Below, piece after piece: positions 44,616-60,500 of a DNA stretch of 64,000 bases. The notes below the pieces were generated by a model that saw only the letters and a program-made list of their open reading frames with translations, did not search any database and was not told the DNA's origin. The position numbers and the translations under genes are program-made. Origin of the DNA: Prasinococcaceae sp. CCMP 1430 (Eukaryota > Prasinodermophyta > Palmophyllophyceae > Prasinococcales > Prasinococcaceae); assembly GCA_013416795.1 (NCBI GenBank), contig RQSC01000027.1:790251-854250 (forward strand), read 5' to 3'. Every line of letters begins with the position of its first letter. Within the stretch, counting starts at the first letter, position 1.

Positions 44616-46593
44616 CTACAACTCCCAGCCGAACTTCTCACGGAGCGGCATGCCCAAGAGCTGCTCGGTTGCAACCACGTACGGCTCGCACACTTTGCGC
44701 ACCTTGGCTCGCGCCGCCGCGTCTAGTAGGTCGGGTCCGTCTGGCGCGTGTGCGTTTCTGTGCATGCCGAGCGCCTCCGCCGTGTAGTTGTGTGGCATGA
44801 TGCCGATATGGGCCTCCACTCGTCGCTGAGAGGCGGAGCGACGCGCGAGCGGACCGCTGTCAGAGTCGTGTGGGCACGAACGCGAGCAATGCGGGCTGCT
44901 GTTGTGGCCTGCCGGCGTGCGCAGACAGAGGGGTAGTGCCCTTGAGAAAATTCACGCCCGCGAGAGGGGAGCAAGCTTGCGAGCGAGCGCAGCGGGCATG
45001 CGCCAGCACAGCACGACAACTCACCATCACCTCAAGCGGTTCGTCGCTGAGGGCATTGGTAAGCTCCACGTGCAGCGCCTCGCGCGGGAAATGCTCGAGC
45101 CAGTCGGCAATCCCGTACGGGAGGTCCTTGCACAGCGCGTACAGCGGCATGTTTGGGTCATCCAGAGCATCGTTGAATGCGCGCGTGAAAGCCTCGCCAT
45201 CCAATCCCTTCCCCTGTGCCCACCGGCTCTTGATCCATTCCGCGGGATCCCGCAGGAGCATGAGCAGCTTTGCACCCGGCGCGACCGCCGCCAGCCGCGT
45301 GGCGGTGCCGCGAAAGCGCCAATACGACGGCGTCTTCTCGCCCGACACCAACACGCCACCTGCCTCGCGCAAGCCGCGCTGGAAGAGAGTGGCGTACCCG
45401 ACGCGTGCCGCGGACACAACAGAGGCAGGCATCGCCCCGGGGTCGACCGCTCCTCCGGATCGCCCACCCTCCCCATTCCCCGCGCCCTCGTCAGGCCCGA
45501 CGAGCGGCCAGGCCAGCGAGAGGTACCAGGTTTCCCTCCATGGCTTGTGCAGACCCACAACGTTGGGTGCCACCTGCGGATGCGCCGCGAGGCGATCCAT
45601 CAGCGTCGTGCTGCCGCCGTGGCCCACGCCGATGTACACGAAGCGCGGCAAACAGAACGAACCCAGCGCGCGGGGCGACTGCGACGCCGACTGAATCCCC
45701 CTCAAGCCGCGCGTGACATTGGGCGCGCGCCCCGCGACGGGCGTGTGCACGTTGCCGCTGAGCGCCCGCCCCCGCAAACCCGCTCGGCGTGCCAACGAGG
45801 CACCTGCACGCGCCCTCCCCGCGGCCTCCCTCGGCCCCGCCATGCCTCTCTGTCTGAGCAGCTCCTCTGCGCGCTCTTGTTCTGCGGCATTTAGGCAGTC
45901 AGGCTGGTGCAAGTAGGGAGCGGGGATGGCCGCGGCGCGCGGCGCCAGGACAGGCGAATGCGCGTGGCCCAGCCTGTAGGCTCTCGGCACGCGCGCCCCT
46001 GTGCTCGCGCCGGCCTCGCGCAGCGGCGTGCCCGCAGTCGTGCACCGCTGGGTCTTCATCGTGCGCGCGTCGGCGCACATTGCATCATTCAGCCGCGGCT
46101 CGTCGGGCAGCGCGTCGAGCGGCGCCACGCGCGCCACCGCCGCCGCCGCCACCAGCGCAAGCGCCAGCGCCAGCGCGAGTGCCAGCGCCAATGCGCTCGC
46201 CCCCGATCCAGCGCCGCGCGCCGCGCGCACACATGGGCGCCGACGCGCGCGCCAAGCGGCGCCGCCCGCCTGCGCTGTGGCCCCTCGATGCCCCACTTCC
46301 CACCCCACCCCAACGCCCGCTCCCCACGTCCTCCTCCCCCGCACCCCACGCGCATCGGCTGCACCCCCTGGCCTGCTCCGCACCACCCTGCGCACCTGGC
46401 GTGACGCACTGGGTTCAGGTTTGAGTTTGGGGTTGCGGTTTGGAAAAAGGGTATAGATGCGAGCGAACGATCGAGTGCGCGAATTGGGCGCCAGACGCGA
46501 GTGGTTGGCGGCGCGCGGCGGCGCGCCACACGCGCGCGCGCGGCGCGGCGGCCAGGAGTGCGCCGGGCGCGCCTCCTTCTGTCCCCCTCCCAT
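44616..46593 (-). CDS. Type II membrane sulfotransferase
   Basis: Exon 1, about 46593-45025, and exon 2, 44825-44616; a 199-bp phase-0 intron (donor GTGAGT, acceptor CTCAG). The sulfotransferase core has the PAPS 5'-phosphate loop YIGVGHGGSTTLMDRLAAHP and the 3'-phosphate motif LLRDPAEWIKSRW, with EKTPSYW between. Exon 2 restores VEAHIGIMPHNY and the end LREKFGWEL. Near residues 125-150 an Ala-Leu repeat forms the only hydrophobic segment, predicted to be the Golgi signal anchor. Such enzymes transfer sulfate from PAPS to carbohydrate or protein in the Golgi lumen. The start is doubtful: ATG 46593 is the only upstream in-frame ATG and gives a long basic leader; an unseen 5' exon is possible. 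Confidence 0.8.
46153..46195. repeat. AGCGCC hexanucleotide run
   Basis: Near-perfect GCGCCA-type hexamers. On the minus strand they encode the alternating Ala-Leu stretch of the sulfotransferase membrane anchor. Confidence 0.7.
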
Positions 46594-46868
46594 CTCCCAC
46601 CCAACGACCTCGCCCCTTGCAACGGGTTGCTCTCCTCGCAGGGACGCGCGTCTCGCTCGCGCAGCGACCGAGAGGCCTCGCGCTTCCTCGTGGATGCTCG
46701 CGGCGGCGGTGGCGCGCGCGGCGGCGGCGGCGGCGAGGGCGCGCGGGCGCGCGCGCAGGCGCGCGGCAGCAGCGGCAGCTGCAGCGGCCGCGGAGGCCGT
46801 TGACGGCGTTGGCAGCCAAGGGGGTGGCGGCGGCGGGCCCTAGCAGGAAGCCGTGCGCGGGTCTCGGC

Positions 46869-47810
46869 ATGGACGCCTCGCAGAAGTACCTATTCGACAC
46901 GCTCGGCTACGTCGTCGTGCGTGGCGCGCTGAGCGCCGACGAGGTTGCCGCGGCCAATGCAGCGATCGACCGGCGGCGGGAGAGCGAGCTGCACGAGCGC
47001 GCGCGCACGCCGTCGCTCAGGCTCTCCGGCGGGTCTAAGAGCTTGGAAGGCGACGGCAAGACGGGCCGCGTGGACTGTGGCACTGTGCTCAGCTGGCCTT
47101 CGCCTGACGGCGACGTCTTCCGCCGCCTGCTGGCTCACCCCTCGCTCGTGCCATATGTCAACGACCTGTGCTGCCCGGGCTATCGCCTCGACCACTCGCC
47201 GCTGCTAATCGTGCAGCAGAAGGGAGCGGAAGGCTTCGAGCTGCACGGTGGCAACCTCGGGGCCACGGGCGAGTGGAACTACCAGACTGCGTACGTGTAC
47301 CAGGGCGAGCGCTGCCACAACTTCCTGCTCAATATGAGCATCGCGCTCACCGACAACGACGGCTCCAGCGGTGGCTTCGCGGTGTTGCCCGGCAGCCATA
47401 AGAGCAACCTGGCTCCGCCCGGCGGACTACGCGCCTGCGAGCCCGAGTACATGAGCATGCTGCAGCGCCCGGCGCTCAAGGCGGGTGACGCCATCCTCTT
47501 CTCTGAGGGTACGCTGCACGGCACGCTGCCGTGGACGGGCGAGGACGAGCGCCGTGCCGTCTTCTTCCGCTTCACAATGCCCACGCATGCGTACGCCCGG
47601 GGATACACCGAGGGCTGGCCAGAAGACGTGCTGGACAAGGTCACTGACGAGCAACGCGTGGTGCTCGAACCGCCATACGCAGTGCGCCTGAACCGCAACA
47701 CGCTGCGCGCGCCGACGGATGGCGGGGACGTGGAGCGCGTCGTTGCGCAGCCGCGCGATCCCAAGAAGGTCGAGTTCGACGAGACTGTCTTCAAACGCGC
47801 CTACTTTTAG
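46869..47810 (+). CDS. Phytanoyl-CoA dioxygenase-like (PhyH) Fe(II)/2OG oxygenase
   Basis: A single-exon protein of 313 residues from ATG 46869 (MDASQKYLFDTLGYVVVRG, the usual family start); an upstream in-frame ATG at 46440 would add 143 Arg-rich residues that overlap the divergent gene. The double-stranded beta helix has proximal His in ELHGGNL, then LNMSIALTDNDGSSGGFAVLPGSHKSN, distal His in GTLHGTLPW and the 2OG-binding Arg in RRAVFFRF. The usual HxD becomes HGG: the carboxylate ligand is absent, as in the LHGG subgroup of PhyH-like proteins and in nonheme-iron halogenases. The substrate is unknown. It converges on the next gene with a 42-bp spacer. Confidence 0.85.
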   Translation: MDASQKYLFDTLGYVVVRGALSADEVAAANAAIDRRRESELHERARTPSLRLSGGSKSLEGDGKTGRVDCGTVLSWPSPDGDVFRRLLAHPSLVPYVNDLCCPGYRLDHSPLLIVQQKGAEGFELHGGNLGATGEWNYQTAYVYQGERCHNFLLNMSIALTDNDGSSGGFAVLPGSHKSNLAPPGGLRACEPEYMSMLQRPALKAGDAILFSEGTLHGTLPWTGEDERRAVFFRFTMPTHAYARGYTEGWPEDVLDKVTDEQRVVLEPPYAVRLNRNTLRAPTDGGDVERVVAQPRDPKKVEFDETVFKRAYF

Positions 47811-47852: not shown

Positions 47853-50051
47853 TCAGGTGGTTTTGTCCCGCCTTTTCACCCTTGCCTTGAGCTTGTTGTC
47901 GGTGGCGTCGAGGCGCGCCTGCTCGTCGAGTGGCAGCTCACTGAAGCACAGCTCGCACAGGCACTTGGACATGAGCCCACACTCACCGAAAGCACCGTGC
48001 GGCGAGTACCGCGTGTGTTTGATACAAAAGACGCCCTGGCAATCCCTGCAGTAGTGTCGCGTCATGCTACTCAGTCTGCGCGGCCGCAGGGACATGAGGA
48101 AGGGGCATGGGCGTCAGCACAGCACCGTGCGTTAGGCGATGCGCGTGCGCGTGCGCATCAAGGTATGCGGGTCTATCATTCGCGCGACGTACGAGAACCT
48201 CTTGAACTCCTTGTCGCAGCTGGGTGCGTGGCAGTGCGAGCGCACAGCGCTCGGTGCAGACGGCGCTCTGCCGACTCCTCTGCTGCTGCCCCCAGAAGCC
48301 GCAAGCGACACACGCCTCCGCTGCCGGCTTGCGTCGAGCGCCTTCGCGGCTGCGCGACGCCAGCGGCCGCCGGCGCTACCGTCAGTGCTGTTGTTGGCGC
48401 CCGCAGGAAAGGAGGGTGCGCGCGCGGTGCCATTAGCGATGCCGTTTGGCGTCGGTGCAGTCGCCTCCTCTGCTGCTGCTCCTGCGCGCGTACTCACTGG
48501 CCCTGCGGGCGGTCGCGTGAGTGTGGCGGTGCGTGCTCCAGCCAGCTCGCCCACCTCACCGGAGCTCTCACCATCGCCTCGCTCGCCATCACGAACGGAG
48601 TCACCCTCATCGCCTTCGCTGCTGCCGCCCATTCCGCCTGCTCTTGCGCTACCATTAGCGCGCCGCGCCACCCAGCGCAGCCCTACTGCGGCAGCGATGG
48701 CCACCAAGTTCAGGGCCAACGAGCGCAGCAGGGACGCGACCCACGCAAGGATGCCGCCGCCTCTGTGCCGAGGCATTTCTTGGACCCCCCCCTCGGAACC
48801 AACGCACGCCCCCGCGCCGTCGCAGCACTGGACTACAGCCCATTTGCCACCGCTGTGGAAGTTCCACGCCCGCACGCGGAATTCGCAAGCGGGCGCGCCG
48901 CTACCAGCCGCGTGGAAACGCGCGAGCGCATCGGGGTACGGGCCTGCGCCACCATTCCGGTCCTCAGCTGGCGGCACGTAGTGAATCACCTCGGAGACCG
49001 GCGTGGCTTCCGCGACGGCGGCGTGCACCCACTCGGAACCGCCCCATCGACCGCCGCTTGCACTCTGCACCTCGTAGCCATGCGTGGGCGGGTCGCCAAG
49101 CTCTTCGGGAGGTGCCCATCGCACGCTAGCCACACTGCCAGCGGCCACGCTACTACCCAGCACCTGCGCGCCATGCGTATGGCACGAGCACGACGGCGTG
49201 CCCACCACGCCAGGCCCCGTGCCTATGTCGAGCAATTTCCACTTCAGCGCGCGCAGGATCTTCTGCCTGTGAAGCGTTGAAGTCACACCGAGCTCCTCGG
49301 AGAGGATGTCCGGCGCGTTTACGATGGTAGCAAACTCGAGCGCTGTGACAGCGGCGGCAATGAAGGCTGGTGCGTACTGGGGCAGCTGCAGACCGTGCGC
49401 CACCCAGTCGGCCACGCCTTCGACCGTGAGTAGCGCGCGCAACGAGCCGCCTGCGCGCACGTGCGAGTCGAGCTCATCCACGGACACGGTCTCGTCTGCG
49501 TCGGCCGACGAGTCCAGCGCAACGAGCAGTGCGCTCGCGCCGCGCTCGATTTCGCCTGCTTCGTCAAACTGAGTGCCACCCACCTCCCCTCGCAGATAGT
49601 TCTTGGCCTCATCGTGCTCGATCTGGCCGTCCCCGTCTTCGTCGAGCGCCACGAAGAATTCGGCGATATCCGAGCGCGAGCCGCGCGGGACGGCCTGGGG
49701 CGGCGCCAAGTCCCCATCCCCCGGCGCTGCGTCGCGGGCGCCCGCGCCGAGCACAACCTCGGAGGCCGCAGCCAAGGCTGCCGCGGTCGCCAAGGCCGCA
49801 GCCGCCGCCGCGCGCGCACACGCCGCCGCTGGCCGCCTCCGGTCGTGCGCATCGCGCACGCCCGGCGGCGCCTCTGGCGCCGGCGCGCGCGTGCACGCGC
49901 CAGGTGCCACCGTCCGCCAGAGTATCTGCACAGGTGTCAGGTGTGTCACACACGCACGCGGACCGCGGACGCCACCAAAAAAAAAAACAGCTTTGACGAG
50001 CGTTCGCTTTCCGCTGTTCCCCGAACGCCCGCTTTTCGGTGCCTTTTCCAT
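47853..50051 (-). CDS. STIM-like membrane protein: EF-hands, SAM, FN3, membrane helix, FYVE-like zinc finger
   Basis: Exon 1, about 50051-48193, and exon 2, 48066-47853; a 126-bp phase-2 intron (donor GTACGT, acceptor TGAGTAG); about 690 residues. Ala-rich hydrophobic stretch near 90-112 (signal or anchor). EF-hand DEDGDGQIEHDE at about 136; a second, degenerate EF at 180-195. A SAM domain at about 209-273 holds LPQYAPAF and HRQKILRAL, both like animal STIM1. Fibronectin III-like region at 290-420. Membrane helix ILAWVASLLRSLALNLVAI at 431-460. The basic cytosolic tail ends in a finger built by splicing: CHAPSCDKEFKRFS joined to MTRHYCRDCQGVFC, then CLCELC, like a divergent FYVE finger. EF-SAM in a lumen and a lipid-binding tail outside suggest a Ca2+ sensor. 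The start is uncertain: an A-run at 49978-49988 interrupts the early frame. Confidence 0.8.
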
Positions 50052-50428
50052 CGAAAATATTCGTCGAGAGAAAAAGTCGACATCGCACATCAAATCGAGG
50101 GCGGCGGGGGGCACATCAGGGCGGAGGGGCCGTTGACCGATGGCGTGAAGTGGTGCACACTGCACTCGGAGCGTGGTCGCATTTGAACTCGGGCGGCGCG
50201 GCGCGCGCCACAGCGGTGTCGCACCGCGAGGGCGGCCCAGGCGCGAGCCCGCCCCCCCCCCCCCCCCNNCCCCCCCCCCCCCCCCCCCCCCCCCCCGCGT
50301 TCCCAAGCGGGACGCGCGAGCTCTGAGGGTGGGGCCAGGTTGCGTGGGCTGGCGCGGGAACTTGGCGCGGCGCGGCGCGGCGCGGCGCACGACGGGGCGG
50401 GGTGCACGCGCGTGCGCGGGGAGCAGCC
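50052..50428. promoter_or_regulatory. Bidirectional promoter with gapped poly-C tract
   Basis: Divergent starts. AT-rich GAAAATATTCGTCGAG and ACATCAAATCGAGG lie at 50053-50100. A C tract of about 45 bases occupies 50252-50296 and is broken by NN at 50268-50269 (an assembly gap). GCGCG pentamer repeats lie near 50366-50390. No gene is supported. Confidence 0.4.
50252..50296. repeat. Poly-C tract with NN gap
   Basis: C runs on both sides of two N. The second such tract of the window; the real length is unknown. Confidence 0.9.
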
Positions 50429-51460
50429 ATGGGCTTCTTCAAGAAGAAGCGTGCGCCCATCACTAACGCGGCGGGCGTCGCTGCGGCCGCTGAGAAGCAG
50501 GCGGTCGACGTGAGGCTCACAAAGAAGAAATACAAGCTCGAAGATGAAGGGTGGAAGTGCGTGTGCGCGCGTCATGGCTCAGCGCTGGCGTCCGCTGTCC
50601 GCGGCCACTTCGCCGCGTCCACACGTCCGCACGTGCGCAGGCACCCGCACACGCGCGGTTGCACTTTGCCCTGACCCACGTGCGTCGTGCACCAACGCGC
50701 TCGCACGCGCGTGTGTGTTGGGTCCTATCTCACACTCTGATGTGGTCAGGTCGGAGGGCGGTACAAGCGCAGACGAGGAAGGGGCAAGCGGCTCAGGTGC
50801 AGGGCTACGCGAAGCGCAGCGCGAGCTGGCGTCCGCACGCGCCTGCATCGGTGAGCTCGAGAGCGCCGTCACAGCGCTGCAGGTGCGTCGTTGCTGCTCC
50901 GTCGTGTGACGCATGCAGAGCGCGCCGCTTGGACCTTGCTGCCACGGCAGCATTGCGCCGACGCCTGCACTGCTGTGTTTTGGTCCCTTCACAACGCTGT
51001 CGCACGTCAGGGTAGCCGCGTGCGCTGACATGGGCCGTGACACCGCCGTCCTCATGCCGCGAGCGAGCGCAGGCAGCGCTTGGCGAGGCGCGCGCGCGCG
51101 CGACCGCCGAGGGCGAAAAGTACAACCTCATCGAGTTCAAGTACCAGCTCCTGGTTGACATGTGGACAATGAGGGTGCTCGACAACGGTGCGGATCCGGG
51201 CTCGCTTGGCGAATGCTCGACTTGACGCAGTCGGGATTGCAACAGCTGACCCAACCCATTCACGCCTCCCGAAACGAACCCAAACACACTCACACACACT
51301 CGTTCCCTTCATCCCTCTGCCCCCAATCTCCACGCAACACACGCACACCGGCGGCGCCGCGCGCGCGTGATCTGCGTCCATAGATGCTGCGACCGCGCAA
51401 GAGGAGGCGGCAGCGCTGCAGGCCGAGCAGCAGGCCCCTGCACCCGTCGAGGCGGCGTAG
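50429..51460 (+). CDS. Small four-exon coiled-coil protein, unrecognised
   Basis: Four exons give 150 residues: 50429-50556, 50750-50882, 51073-51187 and 51384-51460. Introns are 193, 190 and 196 bp, strikingly similar in length, with donors GTGCGT, GTGCGT and GTGCGG. It starts MGFFKKKRAP, with Gly2 and a basic patch, which could be myristoylated. Then comes YKLEDEGW, a Ser/Gly linker, a coiled coil (QRELASARACIGELESAV) and a conserved-looking block EKYNLIEFKYQLLVDMWTMR. It ends in a Gln/Ala/Glu-rich tail. Phases (2, 0, 1) fit all junctions. An alternative acceptor 9 bp upstream of exon 3 is in frame too. I do not know the family. Confidence 0.7.
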
Positions 51461-51528: not shown

Positions 51529-54500
51529 CTACACGGCGGCAGGCAGCACATCCTTCGCGACCTTCACATTCATCCCCGCCGCCATGACGCGCGTAAGGTC
51601 AGCTCCGTGCTCGCTTATCGTGAGCATCCACGAGAGCATGAGCACGACTGGCGCGGGAAGCGCTGCGCGTAGCGCAGCCCCGCCACCGGCCTCGCGCTCG
51701 AGCTCGTCCCGGAGGACGACAATCTCACGACCAATTTGCGGGTCCACCGTCGCTGGGTCAAAGCTTAGGATGGCATGGCGCACCGACTGTTTTCGTGAGG
51801 TCCGCGCCGGTACATCGAGGTAGCGCGGGCAGCGCGCGTCAGCGCAATCCGAGATGTGGTAGCACACTAGCAGGTTGCGCCCGGCACCGCGCGCGCCCAC
51901 TCCCTGAGCGCTCGCTATGCTCGCTCAGACGACGTACCTGCTTGCGCAGCATTAAGCGAATCGAGTGCCAGTCACTGGTGCCGCGCCTCGCATCCGTCCA
52001 TTTGAGGTACCCAAGCATGGCCAGCATGCACTGCAGAATGCGGCTGACTGAGGGCGCCACCTCGTTGTAACTCGTCACCTCAGCAACAAACTTGCGCGAA
52101 GCCTGCCCCTCCCAGAAGCGTTGGGCAGTCCGGCAGACCTCTACTCCTCGCGCGAGCTCCGCGCTCACCGGAATGGGCGCTTCCTTGGGGCGCGCGTGCC
52201 GCGAGCGCCACCATGCTATCTTGCTGATGGCTGCAAATGCCCCCCATCGCTTCGTTGAGTTCATCCTCTCCGGCGAAACTATGTTTTGATTGCTGGGCTT
52301 CGTGACCCTCTCCGGCTCAGGCGAAACTGTGTTGTGATTGCTGGGCTTGTCCTGCTCACCGTCGCTCGACCGCGAGCGCCGCAGCAGAAAGATCGCGACA
52401 GCCAACACTGCGACACCTCCGGCTCCTCCAGCAATGGCTGCGATGGGCAAGCCGCCACCACTGTCGCTGTCGTCATCGCTGTCTACAAGCGCTGGGGGTA
52501 CAAGCGCGGGGGGAGGTGCGGCCGCGTAGCAGCCCGCGTCCTTGCCCGAGGCCGTGGCGCTGCGCTCGTACAGCTCATCGATGCTCGAGACGGGTGAGAA
52601 GTAGATAAGCTCCTCGGCGTCGCACGTGCACTCACCCGCGAGGCACTGGGCACCGTCGCCACGGCAAACGGGCACGCAGGGTGCTTCCTCGGGCTCCGAG
52701 ATGCGCACGTCGGTCACCTCGAGCACCTGTGCGTCCGCCATCAGCGTCACGCCTGCCGTCACCCTCTGCTCGAGCAGAACAGCCAGCGCTTCGAGGCCAT
52801 TCCCCGCCACTGCTGGTTGTGGAGTGCCAGCCGTCGGAATCTCCGGCGCGCCGGCTTCCCGCACGGGCGCGGGCGGCGGTGGTACGTTGCCGTCGTCAGT
52901 TCTCTCGGGAAGGACGGCGAAATCCACTTGCACGCCGCCTGCCGTCTGCGCGAGCGAGCGCCGCTGGCCGACTCGCCTCGCGGGGACAGCAATCACATCA
53001 ATAACGCGAATGCGATCAAAGCTAATGCCGAGCGTGAAGGCGAGGTTTGAGACGAACTCGTCGGTGCCGCCGGCGTCGTAGAAGTCTTCCACGCTCAGTG
53101 CCATCGTGAGGCTCGCCTGGACAGCGTCAATGATGGTCACGGTCACGTCATCGTCAGCTCCGATCACGACCACCAAACGCCTTGACGGATTATCCCAGTG
53201 ATGAGCACCCGAAACGTCCAAGGCGGTCGGCACCGCTGATGACGGCGACACGAGCTGGCCTCCCACGCGCACCTCGTGCAGCTCGGGGGAGGTGTATGCG
53301 ATTCTCACTGCTACGCGTAGGCCGTCCATGGCCACATGCGCGCCGCCGTACCTGAGCCGCAGCTTCCGCGGTGGCGTGCCCGCGAACGTCAGGTTCCACG
53401 TGCGGCGCGCCTCAACCAGCACAGGGAAGCGGCTCAAGCGCAAGAGAGATGTATATCCCTGGTCCCAGCGGTGGTCCATGAAGCTGTTGAGCACGGTCGC
53501 CGCCGGAAAAGGCAGGCCATCGGCGGCCGACTCGGCCTCAAGGCGTACGGGGTGCAGCCTGCGGGTGAACCTGTCAGCGTCTAGGCTCTCAAAGCTGAGC
53601 ATCCCAAAGTCCGTGCCCGTGCATGCGTAGCCATTCCAGTGCGTCACGAAGGCGCAACGCGAATCGCTGTTGAGCAGCTGCGCCGCGTGGGGCAGTACCT
53701 GCACCCCCCAAGCAGCGCCGCCCGCGGCGGACGCCGCGCCGCCAAGTGATGCAAGTGCAGCGCCGAGAACGCCGTCGGAGCCCGCCTCCTCGACGAGCGT
53801 GTTGAGCAGGCCCGTGCAGTCCATGTCGACGCAGTCATCAACTGTCAGCCACCCTGGGTCCGGCGAGACGAAGTAAGCGAGCGCCTCGGGCGCCACGCGC
53901 TGCGTAGTCACGGACTCGGCAAATTTCGTTGGCGTGGTGACATCGGGCGACTGGGGGTTGAGTGAAATCGCGGCGTGGCCTTCGAGATTCCCGCATCCGG
54001 AGGCCGTGTTCCAATCGGCCAGCAGCGTGCGCTTGACCGTTAGCTGGCCCGCGAAGGCAGCGTCCGCCATGATGCCGTGGTAGTCTTGGTAAGTCGGCTG
54101 TCTTGGAAAGGGCATGGGACTACCCGTCGCCCACATGCCTGGCACGATGCCGCGGCGTGGCCCGCAGCCCAACGACCCACACGCTCGCGCGCCGCCGTCA
54201 AATCCACAGCCACCCGCGCCACCGGGCGAGGCGCCGATGACGACCGCGTCCTGCACGAGCACTTCCCCCGCGTCGTCGCCCAGCGCGTCCGCGGGCACAG
54301 GCACGATCGCCACGCCGATCAGATTATCGGCCAACCAGGTCTTCTCAACGATCACCCGCTCAGCGGCCTCGCGGAAGGCAAGGGCTGTCTCCCAGGTGCG
54401 ATGCACGGCAACACCCGAGAGACGCGCGCAGCCCTGCTCGCCTGACGACGGCCTCCGCATGGCTAGCCATCCCTCCCGCATTGAGTGTGCGACATTTGCC

Positions 54501-57500
54501 TCGAAGACTTCGTATGCGGGCGCGATCGAATCACCACAGGGCAGCGCCTCGCCCACGAAGCCGTGGTGCGCACTGCCGGCAGCCACGTTGCCGTGCACGG
54601 TCAAGCCCTCGCACGGCCTTGTTGGGCGCCAGCCGAGCACGTCCCAGGCGCACAGTGCAAAGTTCGCGAGCGCCTCAAACTTGGCCCAATCGAGCTGGTC
54701 ACTCTGCTGGTAGGCGCCGAGGGCGAGGTTGTGCCTCAGGGATACGTGATCACTCTGGAGCAGCTCGATGTTGGATCCACGCGAGTTGTACACGACGCAA
54801 TGGTCCACTGTCACGCGATCGGTGGACTGGACGCGCAAGGCAGAGTTATGCGAGTTCCACACGGCGACGCGTGTGAATGACGACGTCGTGTTGGACGAGT
54901 CAGCGTTCGCGACGAGGATCGCTGTGCGTCCACTCTTATGCTGCCCTCCGTGGCGCAGTTCTGCATCAGACATGCGCAGCGAACCCCGCAGCACGACCAT
55001 TCGCCCCTCCCCGCAGGCACCGACTTCGACAGCGTCAACGCTCACGCGCTGGTCGCCCACGTCCGTGCGGCAGGCCTGCACGCTCGTTACGAGCACGTGG
55101 GCTCCGAATTGGGCGAGAGCGTCGCCCGCCCCCGCCGGCGCGGGCGCGCCCTCGATGACCACGTTGTGCGACAGCAGCCCGACCTCAGCCCTGACGTCGA
55201 CCTCCCGGGCGCCGTAAAGCTCCGCAGTCTTCGCGCCGAAGTGCTGATGCGTGAGCGGCGAGGTCAAGCTCAGCTCTGCACTGCCCGCGGCATCAGCAAG
55301 GAGCTCGGCAACCTCCGCCTCGTCCTGTGAATGGCCGCTCGACGCCAACACAACGCGCGCGCCGGCTGGCCAGTCCACGCCCTCGGCGAGCGTGACAGCA
55401 TCAGCGCCGGCCGATGCAGTCGCACCCAGCCGCGTCCAGGAAGCTGTGCGCGGAAGGCCTTTGATGATGGCCTTGCCCACGACAACGAGCGCGCGGGATC
55501 CAGCGTCTATATACTCGCCGTCCGCATCCTCGCCCAGCTCGAGGTAGACACCGTCGGGCGTGCCCGTCAATCGGATGAGCGCTTGGCCGCAGTATGGCGC
55601 CGATGGATCGCCGATCGACAGCTCGCCGAACACAACCACTGACGCAGCCTCGAGGGCGATGGCCGCCGTGTTGTCGGAGCCCAGTGCGGCAACGCCCGTG
55701 CAGGCAGCCGCCCCCACGCCGGGGTCACACCAACGCAAGCTGCCGTATATGCGGACTAGACCAAGACTGGGCGTGGGCACGTCCAGCACAAGCTGCCACG
55801 CAGGGGGCACGTCGACGTCCTCACCCGCCCTCGGGAGCACACCGCCGGGCCACATGCTCGCGTTGCTCCAGAGGCGCTCGAAAGGCTCGCGCTCCACGGC
55901 AGGCGGCAGCTCGGGCGGTGGGCAGCCATCGCGCGGGCACTCCGCCCCCACCAGATGCAGGCGCTGGGACTCATACGCGCCCTCGCGCTCGGTGCCCGCG
56001 AAGCGAACCGTCAGCGTTTGCGTAGCCGCATCGTAGAACGACGCGCCGGTGGCGGCACCCGCTCCGGGCATCGCGGCCAGCGAGACGGCGGCCTCCTCGC
56101 CAGTCGAGAGGTCGTGCACCTCAAAGTGGTCGCGGTAGGTCGTATGGTTGAACACCAGGTCTAGATGCTCACCTTCGCGGAGGCCAGTCACCTCCACGTC
56201 GAGCTCTTCCCAGTCGCCCGCGCCGCGACCGAGCTGCACGCGCCACGTGCGGCCAGCAAGCACGGCGATCGCCCAACCGTGTGCGGGATCATGCCATTTG
56301 TGGTTCCTGTAGGTGACCGCGCTCCTTCCACCCTGCTCGGATGCGGACTGGACCTCGGACACGAGCAAGTCGTCGTTGTAGAAGACGCTGAACGGCTGCT
56401 GTCCGTACACGGCGACACGTACTGGGCGCTCTTTGGGAGCGCACAAGACGCTGACGCCGTCGGCCTGCTCGGCGCACGGGCCGACGAGGTGCGGCCAGCG
56501 GGCGGCCAGGTGTGCGCCCGCTGTGCCGGTCACGCTGCCGTCGACGTCGCGCAGCACGCCTTTGTGGGGGATGTTCCATCGCACGAGGTTGGCGAGGCTG
56601 GCGTCGTGGAGCGTGATTGCCTCCAGATGGCCGGTTTTGGCGTCGTTGTCCTTGGTGTTTGGGAAGTCGCAATGGTTGCACGTGGCGAACGCCGCCCCCT
56701 CGCGGTCGAAGCCGACAAGATCGGTCGACGCCAAAGTGAAGTTTTCACTTTGGGGCATCCACACGCCCACGGGGCCCGTCCCCCCGTTGGCCTCCGCCGC
56801 CGCGCTCCACTGACCAGAGGGCCCGAGCGCCTCGATTGCTGCGGGGGACATGCCGATCACGAGCGCGCCCTCGATGCGCGCCGAGCCCAAATTCGTGCGG
56901 CTCTCGAGGACTTCGAAGCCCGCCCGGCCGTTGTCGGCCACGCGGAAGTTCTCGAAGCGCAGATCGCCCGCCATCCCGACGCTCACGCCCGAGCGGGCGC
57001 ATTTGAATGCCGTGAAGTCCTCGAAGGTCGTTGGAAGGAGCTTTGAATGGGGCACCGAGCCCCACGAGCAACCGTTGGGGTCCTCCGTAGACACCACAGG
57101 CACATATCGATTGAAGATGCGAAGCCCGTAGCGCCCGTTCGAGTGGGCGACGTTGCCCCGGAAGGCTCCCAGCGGCAGGCCGGGAGGACACACGTCGGGC
57201 GTGGAGCTGGGTCCGGTGGGGTGGAATTGCAGGTCGAACCAGAAGCCGTATCGCGCGGAGCCTGCCGCGGCATTATTCACAAACGTGTTGGAGGGGTTGG
57301 TGATCCAGAAAGAAGCGGGGGTCGTGTCCGTGTCGAGCAGGCTGCTACTGGGCCGCGTGCTGACCGCGAGGTTGCCCTCGATACGGTTCTGGGACTCAAT
57401 GCCGTCCTCAATGAAGTACGTGTGACCCAGCGTCTCGAAGGCGACGTTGCCGCTCAGCTCGAGGTGCTTGACGCCGTGCACTGTGACCGCGCGGTTGAAT

Positions 57501-60500
57501 GTGTGGTGGATCGCGCAGTTGCGAATGTACGAGCGCGACACGCTTCCAATCATGTGGAAATGCAGCGGGTAACGGCCTGCAGGTGCGCGCGGCGCGCGTC
57601 AGGGCCCGGGACGGGGCGCGGCGGTGCGGGCGCACGCGCAGCCTCGCGAGGACGCACCGAGATTGAAAGCCTGCCCCACATTCGCGAGCTCGACGTTGGA
57701 GAAGCGGCCGACCGCGCTGTTGTCTCCATGGCTATGAAGCATGATGTGCGCGCCCCACTGCGTCTCCGCAGACCCCTCGTCACCACGAACTTTCACAGAG
57801 CGGCTCAGAATGCCCACCTCGGCGCGCATCTCGATCGTCTTGCCCCCGTGCGTGTAGGATACGCTCAGATGCGTGTGAGTCAGAGGCGAGGAGAGGATGA
57901 GCGTCCTGCCGCCGTGTGCGACCGCAGCAATCGTCACCTGCTCAGCGTGGTCCATCTCGAAGTCCGTTGAGGCGACCACGATGACGTCGCCGGCGCGCCA
58001 GCCTGACGTGGCGTCCAGCAGCAGCAGAGTGTTGCTGCCCGCGCGCGCCGTCTCCGCAAGGCAAGTCCACGCGGGCGACTTGGGCGCGCCGTGCATGTCC
58101 AGCACGCCGCGGCGCACGGCGATGTTTTTCGCGCCGTAGAGCGGCAGCTCCGGTGTCACCAGCGGCTCGCCGTGAAGCGTTATGACCGCATTGTGTTCAA
58201 AGGGACGCTCGAGAGTACCCACGCGCATCTCGCCCCCGCGCAAGAGCAAGTAGGACGCGTCCAGGGATACGTCGCTCTCGTCCGAGAAGATGAGCCGTCC
58301 CTCGACGACGACAAGAAAGAGCTGTGGCGTGTGAATGTCGAGCAAGATCGACTGGCCCGGTGGGATAACCACACTGTCGCCATCCAGGGGCACCGCCCTC
58401 GAGATGCCCCACGAGCGCTCGTCTGACCACCTGTCAATGTACAGAAACTCAGCCGCAGGGTCAATCACCGCGTCACCACGGCCATCCGAGGCAGACACAA
58501 CAATCGATGGCTCGACGAAGTCCGGCCGCGGCCCTGTGACGCACGTAATCGCTGTCGCCGAGGCAGACAGCACCGCGCATTCGATGCCGTCGATGCTGAC
58601 CGCGTACGTTGCCGCAGCGTCGAAATTGCCCGACAGCGTGAGCGTGTCGCCCCCCAGCGTGGAGCCGACCGAGGGCGCGACGGCGGTCACCGCCGCGCTG
58701 AGGGACGAGGAGTACGTATAGGCATCCTCCAGAAGCGCCGAAGCGCCCTCCTGCAGGGCGGGGATCCCGACGCCCTCCTGCGCGCCTGGCTCGGCGGTGA
58801 CGCGCACGCGCACGTCGCAGGGCTTGTCAGCAGGCCTTGTCGAACCCTGCACGCCATACAGTTCGATCTCGGCGAGGACGAGCGAGGTCCGCGCATCGTC
58901 GAAGCTGCGCACTTGGACGAATCGGGACGGCATGTCCGGAACGACGTCGACATCGAAGGTATTCCAGCCATCGCTAAAGATCCTCTCTGACGTGCTCAAG
59001 TCCAGCAGCGTCACCCAGGTCGAACCGTCCGCCGAGCCTTCGAGCAACGTCCGCTCAAGCTGGCGGTCGGGCTTCGCCCACCAGAGCTCGGGCACCGCAG
59101 CGAAGATACTCACGTGACTCAAGTACGCGGCGGCGTCCTGACCGAGGTCGAGGCCCACGTAGGGAAACGGGGTGCCTTGCCCGTCTGTGCCGGCGGCCCG
59201 GTCCCATCCGCTCCACGCGCCAAAGAAGGCGCTCGTAAGGTTTCCGTCGAAGGCATCGGCGGCCGAGGATCTCTCGCCCTCGCGCCACACGCCGTAGGAA
59301 GAGAAAGGCGCGCCGCCGCCGATGCGCCTGGCCTGCGCGCGTAGCTGCTCGGCGCTAGGGGCAACCTCGAGCGGTTGCATTGCGCCTGTCACACACTCAA
59401 TGCTGTCAGGGGCCACGGCGGTGGCGGCGCACGGCACACCACACATGTCCACCTGGATGCGCCTCGTCTCCGACCCGAAGCCCGCGCCTGCGATGCTCAT
59501 GACCGTTCCACCTCCCCGGCTCCCCGCGGATGGCGACACATCTCCTACGCTCGCATTGACCTCCAGTAGGGCAAAGCAGCCGAGCTCGCACACGGCAAAT
59601 CCTGTTGCTGTTTGGAGGGTGAGCTCGTGCGAGCCGGCCGGCACGGCAGACACGTCCACCAAGAGGTGTGTCTCATTCGCGGCGAGCAAGGTCAGCTGGG
59701 TGTCGCCGAAGCGAGCAGTAATGTTTGCTCCGCCGACGGGAAAGCCGCGTCCTCTGATCGTGACGCTGCCAGCGCCGGCAGCCCACCCTCTTGTGTACGC
59801 CGTCGCGTTGGTGCGGTATTCGATGCTCACCGTGCCGTTGGCCACCTGCCCGCCCGATTGCACCTCAAGCTCGTGCGACGCCTCCGCGCTCACCCCCGGT
59901 GCCGTGCACGTCAGCGCTGCCGGGCTGCGCACATCGACATCCGCGCACTCGGCGGTTCCGATGGTGACCGAGGTTGCGCCTCGAACGAAGCCAGCGCCGT
60001 AGACCTCGATGCGCGCACCGCCCAGCGAGAGCGTTGGCAACGTGGCGGAGCGCACGCGCGGCGGGACGTCGATCGTTGCGACTCCCTGCGCAATGCCGGC
60101 ACGTCCGGAGGGAGAATAGGCGTACACCTCGTGAATTCCTCCCCATAACGCCTCGGCAGTCATGGAGCACGTCACCTGGGGGCCGGATGCTCGGTCGATC
60201 TGGCACGGGACCATTGCCTCGAGCTCCACACGCGTCGGGGTTGGGCATGTGGCAGCCACGCCAGAGCAGCGCAGTGCGGCGGTGTCCTCGCTCACCGTGA
60301 CGATGATGTCCGAGGGCACTGACTCATTGAAAGTCACCTCGAGGGTGTGCAACCCGCCTTCAGCGGGGGAGTAGGAGGATGTGGCGTTGAGCATTGATAG
60401 GGTCTCGCTTTGCTTGTACGCAAAGCCGCAGTCGTCACCGGCTGTGGGCGGTACTGTGGACAGGTCGAGGCCCGCGCACGACGAGTGCGCGCCTCGCATG

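Follow-up and report, generated by a model that had tools for sequence, protein, structure and literature searches.

According to our analysis, the window, the whole stretch of 64,000 nucleotides examined here, holds on its minus strand a gene whose product is best described as a candidate STIM-like luminal Ca2+ sensor with a divergent FYVE-type tail. We estimate at roughly 45% the probability that it operates as a single-pass store sensor, in which an EF-SAM-FN3 part would face the lumen while a basic tail and a FYVE-type finger would lie in the cytosol. This reading is supported by the conserved domain order, the STIM-like EF-SAM unit, the canonical first EF loop, the FYVE-type finger, and Orai in the same genome; counting against it are the lack of a SOAR match in the protein, the EF region, which alone does not favor STIM, the reverse search with STIM2, the net charge over 50 residues, and the sequons on the tail side. 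Since the alga bears Orai together with a single genomic copy of this EF-SAM membrane protein, the gene is a concrete candidate for the question posed by Orai without STIM, and it offers a natural comparison of a similar sensor head with a different output.

Two minus-strand exons (50051..48193 and 48075..47853) join in frame, with the ATG at 50051, the donor at 48192, and the acceptor at 48076, to give 693 residues. The EF, SAM, and FN3-type regions and the membrane helix are encoded in the open frame 48132..50438 (minus strand), which also holds the initial Cys pair of the finger; the rest of the finger is encoded in the open frame 47853..48113 (minus strand). The span proposed in the preliminary description, 47853..50051, has ends that coincide with the ATG and the stop of the joined frame, and the order proposed there, with FN3, a membrane helix, and a spliced FYVE-like finger, holds according to hydropathy, the finger profile, and the chains of the relatives P0001 and P0002, with FN3 read as an FN3-type region. 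In full, the order is an Ala-rich signal-like segment, an EF pair, SAM, the FN3-type region, the membrane helix, the basic tail, and the divergent FYVE-type finger, with the following features.

48193..50051, minus strand: exon 1, from the open frame and the in-frame join; starts at ATG 50051, an alternative in-frame ATG at 50093 being possible
48076..48192, minus strand: intron, GTACGT...CCGCGCAG, phase 2, from the listed splice sites; the join agrees with P0001
47853..48075, minus strand: exon 2 including the TGA stop, from the open frame; aligns with the finger of P0001 and P0002
49746..49838, minus strand: putative Ala-rich hydrophobic signal-like segment, residues 72-102, mean hydropathy 1.82
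49608..49643, minus strand: EF loop 1, canonical, residues 137-148; EF-hand_6 match below the cut-off
49473..49508, minus strand: EF loop 2, degenerate, residues 182-193, from the sequence; aligns with EF2 of P0001 and P0002
49221..49436, minus strand: SAM domain, residues 206-277; SAM_2 at 2.3e-8, STIM2 and STIM1 ranking 1-2 of 31
48813..49223, minus strand: FN3-type region, residues 277-413
48678..48740, minus strand: membrane helix, residues 438-458; highest hydropathy (1.96), at the corresponding position in P0001 and P0002
48306..48371, minus strand: basic tail segment GGRWRRAAAKALDASRQRRRVS, residues 561-582, common to P0001
48193..48233, minus strand: FYVE-type finger, portion encoded by exon 1, starting with Cys607
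47943..48075, minus strand: FYVE-type finger, portion encoded by exon 2, ending with residue 664

The donor at 48198 was dropped in favor of 48192, which is the better site and yields SLSS as in P0001. The sites of this intron are similar to those of the Orai intron in the same genome, read as GTGCGT...CGCGCAG. We gave no weight to a CTAAC branch-point motif in the intron, since the motif is rarer in the window than in shuffled sequence (12 matches versus a shuffle mean of 29.7), and an Rfam search of the window returned no match. The exon join is supported by P0001, which starts inside EF1 and then carries EF2, SAM, FN3, helix, tail, and finger on one chain. It is extremely improbable that there are two separate genes, with the EF-SAM exon in one transcript and the finger exon in another: the gene call of P0003, which resembles a close strain, extends into the intron and stops within it, as such a division would have it, but P0001 carries both halves and aligns across the junction, and the Diacronema protein likewise terminates in such a finger. 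From the reading frames and these alignments, we regard the predicted EF-SAM/FYVE-type gene as confirmed, that is, as a real, single chain of two exons. A long C run with two unread bases (nn) at about 50250-50297, some 200 bases upstream of the gene start, is a possible weak spot of the assembly.

The preliminary description had proposed a search for the same domain order elsewhere, and we found it kept in P0001 and, with a doubled unit, in P0002, the Diacronema lutheri protein KFE25_008743. Both were retrieved with residues 122-480 as the query (2 of 7999 scored candidates). P0001 has 458 residues, 46% identity over 87% (3.2e-63), and 25 member sequences, and its source is merc (MERC, a marine metatranscriptome catalogue). 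According to an excerpt of a published paper, MERC was assembled by Plass (PMC10864179). P0002, with 985 residues and 30% identity over 64% (1.7e-30), is named a hypothetical protein at NCBI and Calmodulin in UniRef. It shares with the window protein EF-SAM-FN3, helix, tail, and terminal finger but differs in its order, FN3-EF-SAM-FN3-EF-SAM-FN3-helix-tail-finger, with EF-SAM-FN3 doubled and an extra first FN3, in its four EF loops, which all look canonical, and in the first finger pair, which is C-x2-C. When the genome to which the window belongs (24.5 Mb, 145 contigs) was searched with P0002, this gene was the sole match at E<=0.01. The GC content of the window is high, at about 68%, and together with the nearest named relative it would suggest a pavlovophyte haptophyte; an excerpt on the D. 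lutheri genome gives 43.5 Mb and 73% (PMC8379373). The protein search with the family alignment returned P0001 and P0003 (2 of 7995 scored) and missed P0002, although P0002 was in the query; such searches therefore miss relatives, and absence elsewhere does not follow from them. With the finger region of P0001 as the query, P0001 itself was the sole match among 252 candidates, and a pattern search of viral and prokaryote collections yielded 38 and 102 stretches, respectively, none of them confirmed. Among the open-access literature matches listed, none described this domain order or an algal STIM.

In STIM, an EF pair (one canonical, one degenerate) and SAM precede a single membrane helix, and the tail is basic. 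The window protein shares these elements with STIM1 and STIM2 of animals and choanoflagellates: a canonical EF-hand is followed by a degenerate (hidden) one and then by SAM, and a single membrane helix, placed by hydropathy alone, comes after SAM, with FN3 intervening, unlike in STIM. Over EF plus SAM, STIM is also the best PDB match. The STIM-like EF-SAM unit noted in the preliminary description was recovered by the family EF-SAM profile, in which the top three of 211 PDB sequences at E<=1 were STIM2, STIM1, and C. elegans STIM (2.7e-10 to 3.6e-9), and by profile-profile comparison, with a probability of 98.5 over 120 columns. With SAM alone, STIM2 and STIM1 rank first and second of 31, while EF alone does not favor STIM; since, moreover, the highest SAM-only score (27.3 bits) and the highest EF-only score (25.1 bits) together exceed the 44 bits of STIM, the top rank of STIM may partly reflect any fusion of EF and SAM. 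The reverse search with the STIM2 segment goes against the likeness, as it places a SAM protein on contig C60 ahead of this gene (19.4 versus 15.2 bits).

The window protein further differs from STIM1 and STIM2 in its FYVE-type finger and in giving no match to SOAR (PF16533), for which Pfam searches were negative in exon 1 (E<=1) and in P0001 and P0002 (E<=0.1); the sole SOAR match in the whole genome is below the cut-off and lies on another contig (C57). The predicted likeness to STIM is borne out for the sensor head and not for the output half. We do not class the protein as a STIM, since no SOAR match was found, and it plausibly works like the luminal half of STIM. Of the "independent or ancestral" design suggested in the preliminary description, either version may hold, EF-SAM having been inherited or assembled twice: the ranking of the whole unit could partly be that of any EF-SAM fusion, and the reverse STIM2 search favors another SAM protein.

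Foldseek with a first, low-confidence structure model gave 521 matches at E<=10 and 0 at E<=0.001, and STIM is absent among the 50 VIA structural matches listed, which fall mainly on FN3. Many of those listed are surface receptors, in which FN3 is common, and these matches would suit a receptor of the surface or secretory route, with EF-SAM-FN3 outside, Ca2+ only stiffening it, SAM and FN3 binding ligands or neighbors, and the finger linking cytosolic or endosomal partners. The three FN3 and the doubled EF-SAM of the Diacronema protein fit such a long ectodomain, and FYVE domains are typical of endosomes. We think that this arrangement is somewhat unlikely, given the STIM-like pairing of EF and SAM, in which the first loop is canonical and the second degenerate, and an ectodomain that has no sequon in the window protein. 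In favor of a store sensor, an EF-hand facing outward in seawater would be saturated, so that sensing by EF-hands would make sense only in a store.

A luminal orientation of EF-SAM-FN3 is suggested by the net charge, which is higher in the 15 residues after the helix than in the 15 before it in all three proteins, by the acidic ectodomain of the window protein (-23, against +11 for the tail), and by Cys within the FN3-type part, common to the window protein and P0001. Extended to 50 residues, the charge rule does not hold for the window protein (2 ahead of the helix, -3 behind it), and its N-glycosylation sequons are on the tail side only. These sequons, and the weakly hydrophobic helix of P0001 (1.33), would instead fit a Ca2+-regulated membrane scaffold with EF-SAM in the cytosol and either the tail outside or a merely peripheral helix; most SAM domains and EF-hand pairs are found in the cytosol, and the genome encodes an EF/IQ/SAM protein that looks cytosolic. 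We consider such a scaffold quite unlikely in view of the signal-like N-terminal stretch, the charge just after the helix, the acidity of the ectodomain, and the Cys in its FN3 part, to which may be added that the zinc finger would sit in an oxidizing space.

The FYVE-type finger claimed in the preliminary description is supported as a divergent FYVE. A profile of the three fingers matched six PDB sequences at E<=1, each of the six being a FYVE domain or a chain containing one, with Vps27 first (0.0013). In Pfam, FYVE stays below the cut-off for all three (16.5-17.7 bits versus 27.8), alongside other sub-cut-off families. The AN1, TFIIB-ribbon, and C2H2 readings were rejected, as these sub-cut-off matches shift with the choice of splice site and the profile search yields FYVE only. 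Each of the three fingers has R-H-x-C-R-x-C plus a Cys four residues further; this core and the following Cys are shared with the FYVE of Vps27, WDFY3, EEA1, and Hrs. The eight zinc ligands, which form four pairs about the CRxC motif, are present in a variant form with C-x4-C and Cys-x2-His pairs. C-x4-C, the first pair in the window protein and P0001, separates them from these four FYVE domains, whereas CIKH is no departure from FYVE, since the third pair of Vps27 also has His (FCQEH). The PI3P signature of FYVE domains is WxxD, R(R/K)HHCR, and RVC. In the finger of the window protein, WxxD is absent, with no W just upstream of the first Cys, the basic motif is eroded to TRHYCR, and CLC replaces RVC; from the known roles of these motifs, the binding of PI3P put forward in the preliminary description is not supported and should not be assumed. 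The blocks of the finger have a pLDDT of 31-61 in a second, likewise low-confidence structure model, and for this reason we make no statement on its fold. Where STIM has a C-terminal polybasic membrane anchor, the window protein ends in KARVKRRDKTT and P0001 in LLRPPQSAS, the inner basic segment being common to both. Protrudin (ZFYVE27) is an ER membrane protein that also ends in a FYVE-like finger; the ER membrane location is protrudin's, and unlike the window protein it is without EF-SAM or FN3 and has more membrane segments. Among single open frames of the genome, no FYVE match exceeds the cut-off, and the one below it lies in a frame that is not finger-like by eye; this is odd for a eukaryote, and domains split by introns would escape a single-frame search.

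The Orai-like channel that the preliminary description proposed to look for is present on contig C60, in two exons with 85.3 and 52.3 bits (cut-off, 25). Exon 1 aligns (1.9e-5) to a solved Orai, which we take to be that of Drosophila, and retains the filter Glu; exon 2 has no PDB match at E<=0.1. For the IP3 receptor, PF01365 gave no genome match, its controls being silent too, and PF08709 gave one match of 20 bits, below the cut-off of 23. According to excerpts of published work, Orai is reported without STIM from diatoms, green algae, and early plants, in which some other store sensor or gating is expected (PMC11085791; PMC8318260), Orai has expanded in Emiliania and STIM is placed near the animal base (PMC7016017), and Orai is among the channels likely in the last common eukaryote ancestor (PMC7935092). 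The excerpt of a further study has neither Orai nor STIM in the pathogenic protozoa it examined (PMC3194816).

If the window protein is a store sensor, its EF-SAM-FN3 part would be luminal, the ER being the likeliest Ca2+ store, and its basic tail and finger would be cytosolic. By analogy with STIM, the canonical EF-hand would hold the EF-SAM unit folded at high luminal Ca2+, and when Ca2+ falls the unit would open, the SAM domains self-associate, and the tails cluster. Through the basic segment and the finger, clustered tails may bind a target membrane or protein with higher avidity and so bring the store to a contact site. This site could be at the plasma membrane, the expected place of Orai; Orai as the target is speculative. 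That the protein fills the place of the missing Orai store sensor in these presumed haptophytes, with a STIM-type luminal EF-SAM switch and a FYVE-type tail replacing the SOAR coiled coil, is a long shot. Were it true, the EF-SAM switch would predate animals or have arisen twice.

SAM_2 has six matches in the genome, the other five lying in frames that, read by eye, are coiled-coil-like, a kinase, Tudor-like, a small SAM protein with a membrane segment, and an EF/IQ protein. The best genome match of EF-hand_STIM1 (contig C98) was rejected as an EF protein with no SAM visible in the frame. A strong SAM (1.4e-12) is encoded by the frame C60:90638-94258, roughly 7 kb away from the frames of the Orai exons (101442-102634); within the genome, the STIM2 segment matches this frame best, if weakly. 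C73:5251-5991 is a small frame resembling a signal peptide, SAM, and a membrane helix, perhaps a second luminal SAM. In the window itself, 51842-57598 (minus strand) is an open frame of 1919 residues with CEMIP beta-helix (7.3e-57), G8, and right-handed beta-helix matches and, by eye, a membrane-helix-like stretch near its end. The frame 44863-46839 (minus strand) has a Sulfotransfer_3 match below the cut-off (22.6 versus 27 bits). A phytanoyl-CoA dioxygenase-like gene (PhyH, 2.6e-15) at 46869-47810 (plus strand) is convergent with the finger exon, their stops being about 40 bases apart.
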